Source: a virus. From it: DNA of 24,268 bases. The DNA lies in the IMG/VR virus record IMGVR_UViG_3300037392_000017, positions 1 through 24,268 of that record. One strand, given 5' to 3'. Under the pieces are notes generated by a model. That model saw only the letters and a list, made by a program, of their open reading frames with translations. It searched no databases and was not told where the DNA came from. Positions 27 through 18,793 of this stretch are shown piece after piece (position 1 is the stretch's first letter; each line of letters opens with the position of its first letter). The translations under genes were made by a program, and so were the position numbers.

Positions 27-43
27 GGGAACCTCCAAGTTCC
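27..43 (-). promoter_or_regulatory. Start-associated sequence (SAS), copy 1
   Basis: The minus strand reads GGAACTTGGAGGTTCCC, followed 3 nt later by ATG. It contains the Shine-Dalgarno core GGAGG, partly inside a small inverted repeat (GGAAC/GTTCC). It is identical in all four copies in this window. Confidence 0.85.
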
Positions 44-44
44 A

Positions 45-120
45 GCACCGCAACCGTTGCGGTGCAGTGCGAGCGCCGGAATCGAACCGGCGTTAGTAGC
101 TACTAACGACCATCACTCGC
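45..120 (-). promoter_or_regulatory. tRNA-like leader element, copy 1, plus downstream hairpin
   Basis: Minus strand, 5' to 3': a 7-nt acceptor-like strand (120-114), a 5-nt linker ATGGT, an 18-nt perfect palindrome (108-91) replacing the anticodon arm, a T-arm with loop TTCGATT (86-80), and the 3' acceptor strand (75-69). The acceptor pairs over 7 bp, one of them G-U. There is no D-arm. The acceptor is followed by ACTG and a strong hairpin (65-45, 9-10 bp), then the SAS. It is not a canonical tRNA. It would lie in the mRNA leader of the gene starting at 23. Confidence 0.75.
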
Positions 121-130
121 GACCTACTAC

Positions 131-146
131 TGCTAGACGCCTATCG
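131..146. promoter_or_regulatory. 16-bp operator-like palindrome, site 1
   Basis: TGCTAGACGCCTATCG, a slightly degenerate copy of the dispersed palindrome. It lies just beyond the stop codon (150-148) of the leftward gene 148-888. Confidence 0.6.
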
Positions 147-147
147 G

Positions 148-888
148 TCAGAGACCGCGCAGGTCGCCACCCTTCTTGACGGCGGGCTTGCCGTTCGCCG
201 GGCGGGACGTCGGACGGGACGAGACCGACGCCTTGCCCTGCACCTTCGGCGCCGGCTTCGCGGCGACCTTCGCAGCCGCAGCCTTGCGAGCGGCCTTCGA
301 CCGGCGTGCTTCGACGTCGGCCAGCACCGCGGACAGACCGGCGTGCAGCCCGTCCAACGTGACGTTCGGGACCGCGAGCAACGCGTCCAGCTCGGCGCGG
401 AACGCCTTGCCGTTCGCCTTGCACAGATCGACGGCGACCGCCGAGTACGACGACGCCGCGACCGCAGCCTTCGGCGTCACCTTCGCGACGTTGCCGGTGG
501 CCGCGCCGATCGCCTTCTTGACCGTCGTGACCGTGACGCCCTCCGGCCCGTGCTTGCGGGACAGATCCTCCAGGATGGAGCGGGCCTGCTTGACGTCACC
601 GACGACGATCGCCTCACGGTGTGCCGAGAACGACACCAGCGGGACGCGCTCGCTGACCGGGAACCGGATCGCCACGTCACGGTAGAGACGCAACGTGTTC
701 GCGGATTTCGTCGGGATGCCGGCGGCCTTCGCCTGGGCGACGACCTCCTCGACGGCCTGCACGCCTTGCGGCGCGATCTTGACCAGCTCGTCGGAGAGAC
801 GCCACAGTGACGCCTCGTCGTGGACGTCGCGCAGTGCGTTCAGCACACCCTCGTAGGTGCGGGCCGGGGCGATGGTGGATGTGGACAT
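148..888 (-). CDS. Putative DNA-binding protein with basic Ala/Lys/Pro-rich tail
   Basis: A 246-aa protein starting MSTSTIAPARTYEG. The ATG at 888 is chosen because it lies 3 nt after SAS copy 2; the reading frame extends upstream, but that part overlaps the tRNA-like leader. Residues 1-135 are predicted helical and include a stretch (about 66-110, LRLYRDVAIRFP...SFSAHREA) of the kind seen in helix-turn-helix proteins of actinobacterial phages and plasmids. Residues about 205-246 form a basic, low-complexity tail (AARKAAAAKVAAKPAPK...) resembling histone-like tails. I infer a DNA-binding or nucleoid-associated role but do not recognise a named family. It is second in a run of leftward genes that share the same leader. 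Confidence 0.8.
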   Translation of the reverse strand: MSTSTIAPARTYEGVLNALRDVHDEASLWRLSDELVKIAPQGVQAVEEVVAQAKAAGIPTKSANTLRLYRDVAIRFPVSERVPLVSFSAHREAIVVGDVKQARSILEDLSRKHGPEGVTVTTVKKAIGAATGNVAKVTPKAAVAASSYSAVAVDLCKANGKAFRAELDALLAVPNVTLDGLHAGLSAVLADVEARRSKAARKAAAAKVAAKPAPKVQGKASVSSRPTSRPANGKPAVKKGGDLRGL

Positions 889-891
889 GGT

Positions 892-908
892 GGGAACCTC
901 CAAGTTCC
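892..908 (-). promoter_or_regulatory. Start-associated sequence (SAS), copy 2
   Basis: Identical to copy 1 (minus strand GGAACTTGGAGGTTCCC). It ends 3 nt before the ATG at 888 and provides the GGAGG ribosome-binding core. Confidence 0.88.
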
Positions 909-914
909 TCGTTT

Positions 915-987
915 GCACACGTTGTTGTGTGCAGTGCACGTGCCGGAGTCGAACCGGCGTTAGTAGCTACTAACGACCATCACGTGC
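915..987 (-). promoter_or_regulatory. tRNA-like leader element, copy 2, plus downstream hairpin
   Basis: Minus strand: acceptor GCACGTG (987-981) pairs perfectly over 7 bp with CACGTGC (942-936). Between them are linker ATGGT, the same 18-nt palindrome as copy 1 (975-958) and a T-arm with loop TTCGACT (953-947). ACTG follows, then hairpin GCACAC/GTGTGC (932-915) and the SAS. Compared with copy 1, acceptor pairs 3 and 4 change on both strands (G-C to A-T, A-T to C-G), so pairing is preserved. That argues for selection on RNA structure. Confidence 0.78.
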
Positions 988-1027
988 GACCTTTCTCACC
1001 CCTCACTGTGACGCAGGGGTGTGACGC

Positions 1028-1043
1028 AGATAGACGCCTATCA
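1028..1043. promoter_or_regulatory. 16-bp operator-like palindrome, site 2
   Basis: AGATAGACGCCTATCA. Its last three bases are the stop codon (TGA on the minus strand) of gene 1041-1391. Confidence 0.7.
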
Positions 1044-1391
1044 GCCGGCGTACGACGGCGCGGTGTAGACGCAACGCAGGGAGTCGTAGATCAACGAATC
1101 CTCCTCCGCGGCGAACCCGTACCACCGGGTCGTCTCACCGTCGACCGGGTCGACCGTGAGCCATTCGCCGTAGTCGCCCTCGTCCGCGCCGACGTACTCC
1201 ACGTGACCCGTCGGGACCGGGAGCGCGACGCACCCGGCGACCTTGTCGGCCGACGCGGGCGACGCATCGTGCAGCGCGAAGCCGACGACGCCGCCCGCGA
1301 CGAGCGACGTGACGACCATCGCCGCGACGCGCCAGTTCGACGCCTCACGACGCACGCGGATGCGACCCTGACCGATGTTTCTACGTGACAT
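1041..1391 (-). CDS. Small membrane-anchored or exported protein
   Basis: A 116-aa protein, MSRRNIGQGRIRVRREASNW..., starting at the ATG 1 nt after SAS copy 3. A basic N-terminus (residues 1-20) is followed by one hydrophobic segment (about 22-43, RVAAMVVTSLVAGGVVGFAL) and then HDASPASADK. The protein is therefore either a signal-anchored membrane protein or is cut after an A-x-A-type site near residue 50. The remaining domain of about 65 residues is acidic and aromatic (DEGDYGEWLTVDPVDGE...WYGF) and would face the outside; it has two Cys (in AGCVAL and LRCVY) that could form a disulfide. I do not recognise the family. Accessory phage membrane proteins of this type sometimes act in superinfection exclusion, but nothing here proves that. 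Confidence 0.78.
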   Translation of the reverse strand: MSRRNIGQGRIRVRREASNWRVAAMVVTSLVAGGVVGFALHDASPASADKVAGCVALPVPTGHVEYVGADEGDYGEWLTVDPVDGETTRWYGFAAEEDSLIYDSLRCVYTAPSYAG

Positions 1392-1392
1392 A

Positions 1393-1409
1393 GGGAACCT
1401 CCAAGTTCC
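1393..1409 (-). promoter_or_regulatory. Start-associated sequence (SAS), copy 3
   Basis: Identical to the other copies. It lies 1 nt before the ATG at 1391, the closest spacing of the four. Confidence 0.87.
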
Positions 1410-1412
1410 AGG

Positions 1413-1498
1413 TGCGTCGGGATGACGCAGTGCACACCGCGGGAATCGAACCCGCGCGAGGACCACCGTGTGCGTACGCCGTTAGTAGCGACTAACGG
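1413..1498 (-). promoter_or_regulatory. tRNA-like leader element, copy 3 (rearranged), plus hairpin
   Basis: Minus strand: T-arm GCGGG-TTCGATT-CCCGC (1455-1439) and an acceptor of 6 bp (GCACAC at 1473-1468 with GTGTGC at 1437-1432). The T-stem can extend by one pair (1456 with 1438), giving 12 bp of stacked helix. The GTTAGT...ACTAAC hairpin lies outside and upstream of the acceptor (1498-1479) instead of inside it, and an 11-nt linker takes its place. ACTG, a TGCGTC/GACGCA hairpin (1429-1413) and the SAS follow in the usual order. Confidence 0.65.
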
Positions 1499-1505
1499 CT
1501 GACGG

Positions 1506-1958
1506 TCACGCCGCGGCGACCTTGACGGTCAGCATGGCGATCGCGGCGTCACGGACGCGGGCAATCTCGCCCGCGTCCTTGAGGTTGGCGAGACCGGCAA
1601 GGACGACGTCGATCAGCGGTGTCGGGACCTTCGCGACCTTCGGTTCCGCGGCCGCGGCCTTGACCGAGTCGTAGATCCGCTTGAGCGACCGCGACCCGTT
1701 GCACTCCTCGTCCGCGTACTCCGTGACCTCGTCGAACGTGGTGAACAGTTGCGCGAGCGAGTAACCCTGGCTCACGTAGACCTTCGCGGTCGACGCGGCC
1801 AGGTCGCGGGCCTTGAATGCCGCGGTCAGTTCGTCGCGGGCGACGTCATAGGTGAGTTCACCCGTGACGATGAGTTGACCGATACCGTAGTAATCGGCCA
1901 GACCTTCGACCTCACGTGAGGCAGCGCGGTCCGCGACGTAGTCGATGTATGCATGCAT
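1506..1958 (-). CDS. Helical accessory protein of unknown function
   Basis: A 150-aa protein, MHAYIDYVADRAASREVEGL..., starting at the ATG 2 nt after SAS copy 4. It is mostly helical and contains a linker rich in Ala, Lys and Pro around residues 100-115 (AAAAEPKVAKVPTP), then a second helical segment ending MLTVKVAAA. The two-part helical layout, with an Ala/Lys/Pro-rich stretch, loosely resembles the neighbouring gene 148-888. There are no catalytic motifs, membrane segments or Cys-rich sites that I can see. It is the most promoter-proximal of the leftward genes and directly borders the repeat-rich non-coding region. Function not recognised. Confidence 0.78.
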   Translation of the reverse strand: MHAYIDYVADRAASREVEGLADYYGIGQLIVTGELTYDVARDELTAAFKARDLAASTAKVYVSQGYSLAQLFTTFDEVTEYADEECNGSRSLKRIYDSVKAAAAEPKVAKVPTPLIDVVLAGLANLKDAGEIARVRDAAIAMLTVKVAAA

Positions 1959-1960
1959 TT

Positions 1961-1977
1961 GGGAACCTCCAAGTTCC
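1961..1977 (-). promoter_or_regulatory. Start-associated sequence (SAS), copy 4
   Basis: Identical to the other copies, ending 2 nt before the ATG at 1958. It fixes the start of the 150-aa gene. Confidence 0.87.
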
Positions 1978-1983
1978 TATTTC

Positions 1984-2061
1984 GTGCACCACGGTGGTGC
2001 ACAGTGTGACGGGTCGGAATCGAACCGACCCGTTAGTTACTACTAACGGACCGTCCGTCAC
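1984..2061 (-). promoter_or_regulatory. tRNA-like leader element, copy 4 (most complete), plus hairpin
   Basis: Minus strand: acceptor GTGACGG (2061-2055) pairs over 7 bp with CCGTCAC (2012-2006). The linker is ACGGT. An anticodon-like hairpin CCGTTAG/CTAACGG (2049-2030) has the 6-nt loop TAGTAA. The T-arm GTCGG-TTCGATT-CCGAC (2029-2013) has 5 bp and a 7-nt loop. Acceptor plus T-stem give exactly the 12 bp of a true tRNA. The D-arm is absent and the whole fold is 56 nt. ACTG and a 9-bp hairpin (2002-1984) lead into the SAS. Confidence 0.8.
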
Positions 2062-3176: not shown

Positions 3177-3192
3177 TGATAGACGTCTATCA
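3177..3192. promoter_or_regulatory. 16-bp operator-like palindrome, site 5 (perfect)
   Basis: TGATAGACGTCTATCA is a perfect palindrome between two convergent genes. Its last three bases form the stop codon of gene 3190-3462. Confidence 0.8.
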
Positions 3193-3462
3193 GCCGCCGG
3201 CGCCGGCGGAGTCCTCCCGGTGGACGAGCCGCCAGACGGCCCGTGCGGATTCGCGGTAGGTGAGCCCGCCGTCGGGGTCCTCGCGCTGGGTGCACCACAG
3301 GTCGTGGTCGAGGTGGTGGCCGATGCCGCCCATCACGGAGCGCAGCGCGCATTCCTGGTGCATGACGGCTTCTTGCACACCGTCGGCGGTGACGAGCTGG
3401 GTGGGCACGACACGGTCGTCGTCGTCGATCAGCTCACGGCACAGGGGGCAGTCGGGGTTCAT
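3190..3462 (-). CDS. Small Cys/His-rich (probable zinc-binding) protein
   Basis: A 90-aa protein, MNPDCPLCRELIDDDDRVV.... A CPLC pair near the N-terminus (residues 5 and 8) is followed by MHQECALR, GHHLDHDLWC and a basic C-terminal part with little order (CTQREDPDGGLTYRESARAVWRLVHRED). The CxxC...HxxC...HH...H...C spacing suggests a small treble-clef or RING-like zinc fold; this is inferred from spacing only. The ATG at 3462 is chosen because the frame upstream overlaps the previous gene in an unlikely way and an AGAAGGAAG ribosome-binding site lies about 12 nt before it. It is last in the leftward terminase-side cluster, overlapping the upstream gene by 29 nt. Function unknown. Confidence 0.75.
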   Translation of the reverse strand: MNPDCPLCRELIDDDDRVVPTQLVTADGVQEAVMHQECALRSVMGGIGHHLDHDLWCTQREDPDGGLTYRESARAVWRLVHREDSAGAGG

Positions 3463-7152: not shown

Positions 7153-9063
7153 ATGAGCGATCGACGCCCTCGCCGCCCGACGCGCACGCCGCCCCGGTAC
7201 AACTCCATCGTCGCCTCCGCCACGGTGATGCTCACCCGACCCGTCGCTCTCCGCTCACAGACCAACAACGAGTCGTGGCAGGAAGAAGCGTGGGCGTTCT
7301 ACGACTCCAACGGCGAGCTGCGGTTCGCGGTCGGCTGGATCGCCAACGGGCTCTCCCAAGTGAGCCTCGTCGCCTCGCAGCGCCCCGAACTGCTCGGTGA
7401 CAACCCGGCACCGCTCACCGGCACCAGCGGGATCGACAAGGACGCCAGCAACCTCGTCGCCGCGATCGCCGGGGGACCTGACGGGCAGTCGCAACTCATG
7501 GCCCACCTCGGCCGGCTGCTCACCGTCGCCGGCGTCGGCTGGGTCCTCATCGAATCCCAAGGCGGCGACTCGCTCGACGCCGACACCTGGGAATGGCGAG
7601 CCCTGTCCAACGAAGAACTGCGCTCCGATCACGGCGACTACGAAGTCGAGGACATCGAGACCACCGAAGCGAACCCGGACGGGTGGCGACCACTCGCCAC
7701 CAACCACGTGCTCATCAAGGTCTGGCGCTCCCACCCGCGGCGGGCATCCCGTGCGGACAGCTCCACCCGTGGCGCGCTGCGCCCGCTGCGCCAGCTCGCC
7801 ATGCTCGACGACCACATCGACGCCACCGCCCAATCACGCCTTGCCGGTGCGGGCCTGCTGATCGTCCCCAACGAAATCGAGTTCGCCCCGATCGCCACCG
7901 ACGTCGACCCCGACGACCCCGACGCCCAACCCGACGGGGCGACCACCGACGATTTCGTCGAAGTCCTCACCGACACCATGACCGTGCCCATCGCGGACCG
8001 GGCCTCCGCCGCGGCCGTCGTGCCGCTCACCGTCAAGGTGCCCGGCGAGTTCGTCGACAAGGTCCGTCACGTCACGTTCTGGACCGAGTTCTCCGACACC
8101 GTCCTCGGCCTGGGGGAGCGGGCGATCAAACGCCTCGCCCTCGCCCTGGACATGCCGCCCGAAGTCGTCACCGGTGTCTCCGGGATGAACCACTGGGGTG
8201 CCTGGCGGGTGCAGGAAGAAGCGATCACCCTGCACATCATCCCGTTGGCCGAAGTGATCTGCCACGCGCTGACCAAGGGCTACTTGCGCCCCGCGCTGCT
8301 GGCGATGGGCTACAGCCAAGCCGAAGTCGAAGTGGTGATGATCGGCCACGACGTCACCGACCTCACCGTGCGCCCCGACCTGTCGGACAACACGATCGCC
8401 GCATGGGACCGGTTGGAGGTCTCGTCGGCCACCCTGCGCCGCGAAATCGGCCTGTCCGAATCCGACAAGCCGACCGACGCCGAGTACCGCGAGCGGGTCA
8501 TCATGCGCGTCATCGACCGCTCCCCGCAGCTCGCCCCCGTGCTGCTGCCGTTGCTCGGCATCACCGTCGACATGAACGCCGCCGGCACCCAGCCGTACCC
8601 GATCCCCCCGACCGAGACCACACCCGGACGTCAGATCGGTGGGCCACCCGATACACCGCCACCACCGGCCGAGAGCGCGTCGGCTGATAGCCGCCTATCA
8701 GTCGACGCGCTCACCGCTTCCTGCGACGCGCTCGTCTACCGGGCGTTGGAACGAGCCGGCCTGCGGCTCCGCAACAAGGCGGGCCGGGTCGCCGGGGGAC
8801 CCGAACACGTCGACTGCGGCGACGACCTCACCGAGCTGCACACCCGCCTCGACGCGTCCACGTTCTCCAACGTCCACGAACTCCTTGACGGTGCATGGGT
8901 GCGTGTCCCGGTGATCGCCTCCCGGTTCGACGTCTCCGCCGAGGAGCTGCTCACCGCGATCGACTCGTACACCCGCGGCCTGCTCGTCTCCGGGCAACCG
9001 CACGACATCGGACGGATGCGTGACGCGCTGCCGCTGTGCGCCGCCGTCGGGGGGTTGACATGA
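7153..9063 (+). CDS. Portal protein
   Basis: A 636-aa protein, MSDRRPRRPTRTPPRYNSIV.... It is the first gene of the rightward virion operon and is followed directly by the maturation protease, the classic portal position. The N-terminal part carries SWQEEAWAFYDSNGELRFAV, and a large alpha/beta core runs to about residue 480, including KVPGEFVDKVRHVTFWTEF and ALDMPPEVVTGVSGMNHWGA. These are characteristic of the portals of actinobacteriophages. It forms the dodecameric ring through which DNA enters. After a Pro-rich linker (about 480-508) a 16-bp palindrome reads through as ADSRLS (511-516), and an extra C-terminal domain of about 120 residues follows. This end may be a fusion. The start has no Shine-Dalgarno. 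Confidence 0.92.
   Translation: MSDRRPRRPTRTPPRYNSIVASATVMLTRPVALRSQTNNESWQEEAWAFYDSNGELRFAVGWIANGLSQVSLVASQRPELLGDNPAPLTGTSGIDKDASNLVAAIAGGPDGQSQLMAHLGRLLTVAGVGWVLIESQGGDSLDADTWEWRALSNEELRSDHGDYEVEDIETTEANPDGWRPLATNHVLIKVWRSHPRRASRADSSTRGALRPLRQLAMLDDHIDATAQSRLAGAGLLIVPNEIEFAPIATDVDPDDPDAQPDGATTDDFVEVLTDTMTVPIADRASAAAVVPLTVKVPGEFVDKVRHVTFWTEFSDTVLGLGERAIKRLALALDMPPEVVTGVSGMNHWGAWRVQEEAITLHIIPLAEVICHALTKGYLRPALLAMGYSQAEVEVVMIGHDVTDLTVRPDLSDNTIAAWDRLEVSSATLRREIGLSESDKPTDAEYRERVIMRVIDRSPQLAPVLLPLLGITVDMNAAGTQPYPIPPTETTPGRQIGGPPDTPPPPAESASADSRLSVDALTASCDALVYRALERAGLRLRNKAGRVAGGPEHVDCGDDLTELHTRLDASTFSNVHELLDGAWVRVPVIASRFDVSAEELLTAIDSYTRGLLVSGQPHDIGRMRDALPLCAAVGGLT
8685..8700. promoter_or_regulatory. 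16-bp operator-like palindrome, site 7 (within portal)
   Basis: TGATAGCCGCCTATCA, inside the portal frame at the junction of the Pro-rich linker and the C-terminal extra domain. In another frame it would give the TGA/TAG stops seen at the intergenic copies. Confidence 0.75.
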
Positions 9064-17005: not shown

Positions 17006-18793
17006 GTGGCAAACGTCCCGCCCCGTGGCCTGTTCGCCCGCTACGCCGGGGTGTGGGAGAACCCGCTGGCGGTCTACGCCCGCGTCGCCGGCGTGTGGAA
17101 GCCCGTCGAGTTCGTGTACGCGATGCGGAACGGGGCCTGGCAGTTGTTGTGGTCGCGCAGCGCCACCTCCCCGACGACCGTGACGATCGCCTACACCCGC
17201 GGGCAGGTCAACGTGACATGGGTGCCGACCAGTCCGTCCATCGTCGACACGTACAACATCTACCGGCCCGACGGCTCCGGTGCAGGGACCGTCGTCGCGG
17301 GAACCACCTCGTTCGTCGACGTCGACCCGAAACCGTTGTCCGGTGCGTACACCGTGAAGGGCGTCCTCGGTGGCGTCGAAGCGATCACCGGCACCGCGTC
17401 GAACTCGCTCGACCTACGCCTGCAAGCCGCGACCCTCGCCGCCGTCGTCGAGACGAACGGCAGCGTCACCCTCAACTGGACCCCCGCCGCGGTCGGTGCG
17501 CCCGACTCATGGAACCTCTACACGTTCAGCACGACCGGCGTCTACACCTTGATCGCCAACATCGACGGTCTCGTCAACACCTACAACGATCCCTCCGCAC
17601 CGGCCGGCGTCATCGTCGACTACCGGCTCCGCCCCGTCCTGTCCGGCATCGAAGGCACGGAACGAGGCGTCACCAGCGGCACCCCGCCGAAGGTGCCGAC
17701 GTCGGTCGTCCTCGCCGCGGTCGGGGCGTCGAACCTGCGCCTCACGTGGGTCGCCGCAACCGGCACCGTCACCGGGTACGAGGTCGAGACGTCCACCGAC
17801 AACACGGCATGGGCAGCGAGCGCGGACGACGCGTCACCGGTCGATTGGGCGACCGGCACGACCACCGGGTACATGCGCGTCCGAACCCTCGCGCCCGGCG
17901 GTGTGTCGGCGTGGGTCACGAAGGGTCCGGTGGCGGCGATTACCGACGTCACCCCACCGTCGAATGCGGCGATCCAGTCGTGGATGCCGGAATCGTCCTA
18001 CGGGCGGATGGTGGTCCGCTTCGCCACACAGTCGGGCGCTGACGTCGACGCGTACCTCGTCCAACAGCGGCTCACGGGTGGCGCCTGGGCCGACGTTGGC
18101 ACGTGGGTGTCGTGCAACCCGAGCACCATCTACTCGAAGGTGTGTTCCACCCGATCGGCCGGCCAGTCCGCTGAGGTCAAGGTGATCCTGCGCGACGCCG
18201 CCGGGAACCAGAACACCGGCGACACCGCGGTCTACGTCCTCGACGCGAGCCCCATCGTCATCGACCCGTCCGGCTCCCTGTCGGGCACGTTCCGCAACGG
18301 GGCCTGGCGCAACGACTCGTCCCGGTCAACCACCGAACTCGCCACCGGATGGACCAGCTCCGGGCACAACATGGGCTGCTTCTTCTACGGCACCACCATC
18401 TACGCGGCGATCAGCGACAAGACCGTCCTCAGTGCGACGATGGAGTACTACCGGGAGAACGAGGGCGGTCTCAGCTCGGCGGTCGTGCCGCTGTTCTGGA
18501 CCCACCAGCTCGCCACCCGCAGCGGCACCCCGGTCCCCGACGACGAAGGTGCGTCCTCGACGTCGCGGTCCGGGCCGGGTGTGGTCCGCTCCACACCGAA
18601 CGACACCGCCACCTTCGCCCTCCCCGCCGGATTCATCAACGCGCTCAAGACGACCGCCAAGCGCGGCCTGTGCATGTACCGCGGCTACCAGGGTTCCGGC
18701 GACCCCGACAACTACTACGCGCTCATGGGCATCGGTGACGTCGCCAACAACGGCGTCGTCAACGGGCGGCTCCGGTTCACCCATTTGGGGTGA
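17006..18793 (+). CDS. Large minor tail protein with fibronectin-III-like repeats
   Basis: A 595-aa protein starting GTG, (M)ANVPPRGLFARYAGVWENPL.... The N-terminus (8-50) has three short Trp repeats (YAGVWENP, VAGVWKPV, MRNGAWQLLW), common in actinophage tail tips. Then come three or more FN3/Ig-like domains (about 55-330), seen from TVTIAYTRGQVNVTWVP, TNGSVTLNWTPAAVGAPDSW and ASNLRLTWVAATGTVTGYEV. A C-terminal beta domain (about 420-595) includes TGWTSSGHNMGCFFYGTTIY and FALPAGFINALKTTAKRGLC. It probably decorates the tail tip and binds host glycans or protein. The start lies directly after a palindrome with no ribosome-binding site visible. Confidence 0.85.
   Translation: MANVPPRGLFARYAGVWENPLAVYARVAGVWKPVEFVYAMRNGAWQLLWSRSATSPTTVTIAYTRGQVNVTWVPTSPSIVDTYNIYRPDGSGAGTVVAGTTSFVDVDPKPLSGAYTVKGVLGGVEAITGTASNSLDLRLQAATLAAVVETNGSVTLNWTPAAVGAPDSWNLYTFSTTGVYTLIANIDGLVNTYNDPSAPAGVIVDYRLRPVLSGIEGTERGVTSGTPPKVPTSVVLAAVGASNLRLTWVAATGTVTGYEVETSTDNTAWAASADDASPVDWATGTTTGYMRVRTLAPGGVSAWVTKGPVAAITDVTPPSNAAIQSWMPESSYGRMVVRFATQSGADVDAYLVQQRLTGGAWADVGTWVSCNPSTIYSKVCSTRSAGQSAEVKVILRDAAGNQNTGDTAVYVLDASPIVIDPSGSLSGTFRNGAWRNDSSRSTTELATGWTSSGHNMGCFFYGTTIYAAISDKTVLSATMEYYRENEGGLSSAVVPLFWTHQLATRSGTPVPDDEGASSTSRSGPGVVRSTPNDTATFALPAGFINALKTTAKRGLCMYRGYQGSGDPDNYYALMGIGDVANNGVVNGRLRFTHLG

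Follow-up and report, generated by a model that had tools for sequence, protein, structure and literature searches.

Repeated tRNA-like leaders between genes of actinobacterial phages and their possible role in dividing polycistronic mRNA

What kind of element is the tRNA-like leader repeated before genes at the left end of a 24,268-base viral fragment (IMG/VR record IMGVR_UViG_3300037392_000017; the window below), and what might it do? The portal, tape measure, capsid and head-tail adaptor genes of the window all run rightward, and four leftward genes lie at its left end, opposite in direction to them. The original prediction was that each leftward gene is headed by the same ordered minus-strand module, and all four modules were located (120–69, 987–936, 1473–1432 and 2061–2006; Table 1). 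Their tRNA-like parts belong to a family of intergenic tRNA-like leaders that also occurs in other phages.

Each module runs in a fixed order: a tRNA-like fold, ACT, a hairpin opening with the G of "ACTG", GGAACTTGGAGGTTCCC, 1–3 nt, and ATG. Within the fold, a T-arm with a TTCGAYT loop is stacked on the acceptor stem, giving 11, 11, 12, and 12 bp in copies 1–4; the hairpins that follow differ in sequence while their stems pair (Table 1). A blind descriptor requiring only a 7-nt TTCRANY T-loop and at least 11 bp of T-stem/acceptor pairing matched the window at exactly the four module copies, against 0.08 matches per shuffled window. Single-sequence folding gave z-scores of −2.2 to −4.7. The minimum-free-energy structure contains the complete tRNA-like stack for copies 2, 3, and 4, and for copy 1 it keeps the T-arm and palindrome hairpins and replaces the acceptor stem with an alternative. 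Copy 4 indeed has the 7-bp acceptor and 5-bp T stem of a real tRNA, as first described. The accompanying statement that a D-arm is lacking needs amendment: all four copies carry a mini-D-loop, G[RYGGU]C, with the GG of the tRNA D-loop.

Homologues supported by covariation exist in other phages, against the possibility raised at the outset that none would be found. Two covariance models built without window sequence, R1 from 43 type I elements and R2 from 19 type II elements, each ranked the four window copies first on a search of both strands. For copies 1–4, R1 gave E values of 1.3e-4, 8e-3, 2e-3, and 0.012 (next best 0.22), and R2 gave 1.6e-3, 1.3e-3, 3.7e-6, and 6e-4 (next best 0.022). Copy 3 is a plain type II form and most resembles the type II elements found in other phages.

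Base pairing is conserved through sequence change. In the 43 representatives, a set that had been selected for pairing, all acceptor and T-stem pairs are formed and all but one pair changed on both sides. An unbiased set of 99 sequences was retrieved with an exact pattern that did not require pairing at acceptor or variable T-stem positions; there, the same pairs are 97–100% formed, with many compensatory changes. Two contacts never used in selection are both among the strongest mutual-information signals: Columns 7 and 13 pair as C-G, G-C, A-U, or U-A in 99% of the 99 sequences, and column 14 pairs with the last T-loop base (T-loop 60) as A-U or G-C in 100%. Pair 7:13 closes a five-base loop holding a GG that is invariant in 157/157 type I elements, and the T-loop sequence is nearly fully conserved in the family. 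In type II elements G[AUGGU]C replaces this first loop, and the stems again covary in a smaller set that was selected for pairing. A −1:75 pairing considered as an alternative end helix was 75% paired against 61% expected, with weak covariation, and was not adopted.

Read against the tRNA fold, this covariation suggests that the GG of the one-pair mini-D-loop, corresponding to G18G19, can dock on T-loop bases 55 and 56, and that the 14:60 purine–pyrimidine contact recalls the 15:48 Levitt pair. Sequence and covariation together point to a tRNA elbow mimic without an anticodon arm. The elements have the acceptor stem, the T-arm with a TTCRANY loop, and the discriminator of a tRNA gene; an anticodon arm with a 7-nt loop is absent, with none in the 40–45-nt forms or in copy 3 and a palindrome with a 6-nt loop in copies 1, 2, and 4. 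ARAGORN reported no tRNA and no tmRNA in the window. Across the window and the relatives tested, Rfam placed nothing at gathering score on the elements, including RF00005 and tmRNA, and its sole match was an ordinary tRNA. Below the gathering score, tRNA-Sec reached E values of 0.14–0.46 for three window copies, which is attributable to the T-arm only.

The family is broad and patchy. A pattern scan, the descriptor, and a second, more specific scan recovered the same grammar in some 60 viral contigs, including 157 distinct 40-nt elements with a 5-bp acceptor, 11 nt, and a 6-bp T stem, a count restricted to elements with a Shine-Dalgarno-bearing start codon at most 110 nt away. Without that restriction, 277 of the 324 non-tRNA descriptor matches in family loci have a start codon with a Shine-Dalgarno sequence within the same distance. 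Streptomyces phages Lika and phiHau3 carry 7 and 6 copies, and the family also occurs in Mycobacterium phages Oaker, Send513, HINdeR, and Tiger, Gordonia phage Morgana, Streptomyces phage Dagobah, and Corynebacterium phage StAB. A BLAST search of the annotated phage collection with one consensus returned 184 records, 140 of them covering at least 80% of the element, with as many as nine BLAST-level copies in a single Streptomyces phage genome; some of the weaker records are real tRNAs or archaeal-virus sequences. Among the strong BLAST matches listed, no annotation stands at the element, except where a match falls in a hypothetical gene. Descriptor and covariance model found no element above noise in R4, phiC31, or TM4 (the last a cluster K phage with no descriptor match and a best R1 E value of 0.4); the result for R4 and phiC31 makes the family patchy even among R4-like phages. 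Mischief19 and Manuel showed no clear elements, apart from one uncertain descriptor match in Mischief19. We found no description of such elements in the openly licensed full-text literature; tRNA mimicry itself is known, and as an RNA family the leaders appear to be undescribed.

Several matches extend this picture at its edges. Four clustered copies occur in each of 2 of the 150 sampled Streptomyces genomes; these are likely prophages, since one copy precedes a gene whose N-terminus resembles that of a Lika/phiHau3 gene. Outside the Actinobacteria, element-like matches occur in a Gemmatimonadota metagenome-assembled genome (locus L278) and in Empedobacter (L282), which may mean either that the family is truly more widespread or that a bin was contaminated with phage sequence. 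Larger tRNA-like leaders also stand upstream of genes, at 3191–3250 of locus L111 (with a D-arm and without an anticodon arm), at 8796–8864 of L092 (a nearly full-length tRNA), and at 18038–18096 of L054; these are possible intermediates or further subtypes.

Genomic position is constrained as well. Of the 37 strong matches in eight annotated phages, 36 are intergenic, nearly all of them between co-directional genes. The previous stop codon lies within 12 nt for 20 of the 36 (7 and 8 nt being the commonest distances), and the next start lies 35–58 nt away for most. Where co-directional genes are separated by 75 nt or more, 35 of 56 gaps contain an element; none of the 79 shorter gaps does. This distribution is consistent with a device that serves gene junctions lacking translational coupling. 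A downstream hairpin scoring at least 14 follows 61% of elements, compared with 7% in shuffles, and typically opens 2–4 nt past the acceptor stem.

The sequence 3′ of the acceptor stem resembles that of host tRNA genes. Across 183 type I elements the first base is A or G, the second is C in 179/183, and the third is U or G, being C in only 12/183. As a reference we took 66 distinct tRNA genes from five actinobacterial genomes, drawn from the best-scoring ones; 43 of the 66 show N73-C74 without CCA (CU 21, CA 12, CG 10). All 43 sampled genes without CC at 74–75 retain C74 directly after the discriminator. With a discriminator, a C, and no CCA, the 3′ end of the element thus matches a host tRNA gene that does not encode CCA.

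We lean toward reading the elements as cutting signals for host RNase Z and/or RNase P that would divide the early polycistronic phage mRNA, because the features these enzymes read are all conserved and the anticodon arm, which they ignore, is missing. The substrate features present are an 11–12-bp acceptor/T stack, the T-loop, the elbow contacts, and the CCA-less, host-like 3′ context. RNase P recognizes the elbow and the acceptor/T stack, requiring the T-loop and dispensing with the D-loop, and CCA is an antideterminant for RNase Z (PMC4919913). Known non-tRNA targets of RNase P include mRNAs and two phage RNAs, phage C4 antisense RNA and phage M3 RNA (PMC11143913). Like the leaders, those substrates present a tRNA-like helix from phage RNA or mRNA; unlike such one-off cases, the leaders form a covarying elbow mimic placed before many genes per genome, and their cleavage is a prediction.

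Under this reading, an element observed between co-directional genes would be transcribed within a polycistronic early mRNA, and its mini-D-loop would dock on the T-loop to form a tRNA elbow. It would then be recognized by host tRNA-maturation endonucleases for which the elbow, the 11–12-bp stack, and the 3′ end suffice, and the message would be split at gene boundaries by an RNase Z cut after the discriminator (A|CU) and/or an RNase P cut before G1. The upstream mRNA would either retain a tRNA-like 3′ end, lying about 7–8 nt past its stop codon, or be cut at that point. After an RNase Z cut, the downstream mRNA would begin with CU, 2–3 nt before a hairpin shielding its 5′ end, followed by its own ribosome-binding site. 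A hairpin close to an mRNA 5′ end is generally known to protect that end. The predicted outcome is an operon punctuated gene by gene, with half-life set separately for each segment.

The fuller proposition is that widespread, undescribed cis-acting tRNA mimics punctuate the early operons of actinobacterial double-stranded DNA (dsDNA) phages gene by gene, with host tRNA 5′ and 3′ processing enzymes as cutters, hairpin-protected downstream 5′ ends, and tRNA-like upstream 3′ ends; on present grounds we would give its truth and its failure about equal weight. The cutting reading predicts exact RNA ends. Should the elements prove to be processed, phages will have co-opted a host housekeeping activity as a general means of dividing operons, and a compact processing tag of about 40 nt would be usable in actinobacteria; should they not, some other factor must recognize the conserved tRNA elbow of these mRNA leaders, and it would be equally new. 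The proposition would also mean that a structured RNA family has gone unnoticed in a large collection of phage genomes that is already heavily annotated.

Some observations weigh against processing. A 3′ CCA aids RNase P activity, and the elements lack it. Position −1 is A in 144 of the 183 type I elements and T in only 6, whereas the host tRNAs have A in 9/66 and T in 17/66. Avoiding T at −1 would leave A73 unpaired, but the preference for A itself is not explained by processing and might even reflect avoidance of one of the two enzymes. Moreover, a stable structure that is never cut would satisfy most of the same sequence evidence.

Such an uncut structure is the basis of an unlikely, though by no means negligible, alternative, in which a tRNA-shaped barrier or insulator blocks exonucleases in both directions, isolates the ribosome-binding site from the preceding gene, and perhaps stops ribosome read-through or re-initiation. 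It would account for a very stable, compact fold lying mostly 7–8 nt past stop codons and about 40 nt before starts, for the absence of elements from short gaps, whose flanking genes are probably coupled in translation, and for the un-tRNA-like A at −1 and avoidance of T. However, a simple hairpin would suffice for a barrier, which does not demand the canonical T-loop, the covarying D-loop/T-loop contact, the discriminator, and C74 that are nonetheless conserved across phages of several host genera.

We consider it improbable that the leaders are binding sites for a trans-acting recognizer of the elbow or T-arm—a phage protein, a tRNA-modifying enzyme, SmpB, or the CCA-adding enzyme—that coordinates early genes in the manner of autoregulatory tRNA-mimicking leaders. 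Multiple similar copies upstream of genes in one genome region would suit such a factor, and the near-fully conserved T-loop fits T-arm modification enzymes; yet no conserved phage partner gene was identified, in work that did not include a systematic search for one, and the family spans phages of quite different gene content. A transcription-level role is more improbable still: Antitermination by an RNA-polymerase-modifying RNA, like the put sites of phage HK022, would carry transcription past hairpins and Rho, consistent with elements repeated along long operons with hairpins downstream, but the conserved features are tRNA features. Furthermore, put sites act over long distances and few copies are needed, unlike elements carried by most intergenic gaps of sufficient length. 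That the elements are decayed tRNA genes or attachment-site remnants scattered in the genome is scarcely credible: although some resemble tRNAs minus one arm (the larger leaders of L111 and L092), they are almost strictly intergenic and on the coding strand, and this origin is rejected for the main types: decay does not conserve base pairs, whereas nearly all of theirs show compensatory change and two extra contacts are conserved as well.

Relative to known tRNA mimicry and processing, the proposed cutting signals have partial parallels. In mitochondrial tRNA punctuation, RNase P and RNase Z excise intergenic tRNAs and thereby release mRNAs; tRNA shapes likewise lie between genes here, but mitochondria use real tRNAs, whereas leaders without an anticodon arm would be cutting signals only, and any excision is conjectural. 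The tRNA-like domain of tmRNA resembles the leaders in combining an acceptor stem and a T-arm with a D-loop that has no stem, and in lacking an anticodon arm; tmRNA, however, acts in trans and has CCA and alanine identity, while the leaders lie in cis in mRNA, many per genome, without encoded CCA. Plant RNA virus 3′ tRNA-like structures are also viral tRNA mimics, including the elbow, but an RNA genome carries a single one, at its 3′ end, whereas the leaders lie between genes in dsDNA phage operons.

Two further parts of the window modules are set apart from the family. The GTTAG-type hairpin had been described as a fixed part of the fold, but it lies inside the fold, in the place of an anticodon arm, only in copies 1, 2, and 4, outside it in copy 3, and is absent from the 40–45-nt forms of other phages. 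The palindrome concerned, GTTAGTAGCTACTAAC, has five window copies (at 92, 959, 1481, 2032, and 2560) against 0 expected, the fifth being a degenerate copy at 2560–2575, 500 bp upstream of copy 4. Because it stands outside the fold in copy 3 and recurs at 2560, we take it most plausibly as an element of its own, perhaps DNA-binding, that can be accommodated within the tRNA-like fold, and it is a candidate operator or early-promoter element. In Lika (locus L187), an inverted repeat, TGTGC-TACCTTC-GCACA, lies in gaps upstream of many elements (e.g., 23312, 21557, 20805, and 19404) and also in element-free gaps; it is perhaps an operator counterpart of the window palindrome.

The start-associated sequence (SAS) before ATG was borne out in the window, where GGAACTTGGAGGTTCC is invariant with four exact copies, but it is not part of the wider family, other phages having ordinary GGAGG/GAGG sites. 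In viral contigs, the exact 16-nt Shine-Dalgarno hairpin occurs in this record only, plus two chance matches inside coding sequence; the exact combination of palindrome and T-arm had no match, and the pattern of Shine-Dalgarno hairpin plus T-arm had three, none of them a descriptor element. These window-specific decorations were thus not found elsewhere in viral contigs. The SAS and extended SAS (ESAS) of cluster K mycobacteriophages are a repeated, ordered sequence a few nucleotides from the starts of nonstructural genes, with a 13-bp consensus, GGGATAGGAGCCC, and an upstream inverted repeat in about half; their authors found little support for ESAS RNA hairpins and favored DNA–protein binding (PMC3203893). 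Like GGGATAGGAGCCC, the window GGAACTTGGAGGTTCC has a Shine-Dalgarno sequence inside a short inverted repeat; unlike it, GGAACTTGGAGGTTCC does not match the 13-bp consensus.

Table 1. Leader modules and leftward genes of the window (coordinates in bases of the window)
Feature	Coordinates	Strand	Details
tRNA-like element, copy 1	69..120	−	Acceptor GCGAG/CTCGC, mini-D-loop GATGGTC, palindrome insert, T-arm CGCCGG-TTCGATT-CCGGCG; descriptor
Variable hairpin, copy 1	45..65	−	GCACCGCAA/TTGCGGTGC; begins 2 nt past discriminator A; ACT = 66–68; sequence and fold
Shine-Dalgarno hairpin, copy 1	28..43	−	Invariant GGAACTTGGAGGTTCC; GGAAC/GTTCC stem, Shine-Dalgarno GGAGG in loop/stem
Palindrome GTTAGTAGCTACTAAC	92..107	.	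At anticodon-arm position of copy 1
Leftward gene behind copy 1	start ATG 23–21	−	Runs off window
tRNA-like element, copy 2	936..987	−	Acceptor GCACGTG/CACGTGC, T-arm CCGG-TTCGACT-CCGG; descriptor
Variable hairpin, copy 2	915..932	−	GCACAC/GTGTGC; ACT = 933–935; sequence and fold
Invariant Shine-Dalgarno hairpin, copy 2	893..908	−	
Palindrome GTTAGTAGCTACTAAC	959..974	.	Inside copy 2
Leftward gene behind copy 2	148..888	−	246 amino acids, without family match
tRNA-like element, copy 3	1432..1473	−	Compact, insert-free: GCACAC GGUGGUC CUCG CGCGGG-TTCGATT-CCCGCG GUGUGC; descriptor
Variable hairpin, copy 3	1414..1428	−	GCGTC/GACGC; ACT = 1429–1431; sequence and fold
Invariant Shine-Dalgarno hairpin, copy 3	1394..1409	−	
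Palindrome GTTAGTCGCTACTAAC	1481..1496	.	Upstream of copy 3, outside fold
Leftward gene behind copy 3	1041..1391	−	116 amino acids, without family match
tRNA-like element, copy 4	2006..2061	−	Acceptor GTGACGG/CCGTCAC, T stem GTCGG/CCGAC; descriptor; fold z = −4.7
Variable hairpin, copy 4	1984..2002	−	GTGCACCAC/GTGGTGCAC; ACT = 2003–2005; sequence and fold
Invariant Shine-Dalgarno hairpin, copy 4	1962..1977	−	
Palindrome, 2 mismatches	2032..2047	.	Inside copy 4
Leftward gene behind copy 4	1506..1958	−	150 amino acids, without family match

The protein encoded at 148–888 had no relatives in viral contigs or annotated phages. A near relative of the window phage was likewise not found in the annotated phage collection; by portal comparison, its best annotated relatives are mostly actinobacteriophages at ~30–35% identity, and five IMG/VR contigs encode portals 73–77% identical to its own. 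A second, 16-bp palindrome, TGATAGACGTCTATCA, has 14 window copies with at most 3 mismatches, against 0.02 expected; these sites span 131–22912 (e.g., 1028, 2162, 3177, 5605, 8685, 12994, 16990, and 20531), mostly near gene boundaries, and as a set look like the repressor/stoperator system of cluster A mycobacteriophages. The divergent intergenic region at 2690–2792 holds two perfect short tandem arrays, a 7-bp unit repeated 6.4 times and a 6-bp unit repeated 5.3 times.

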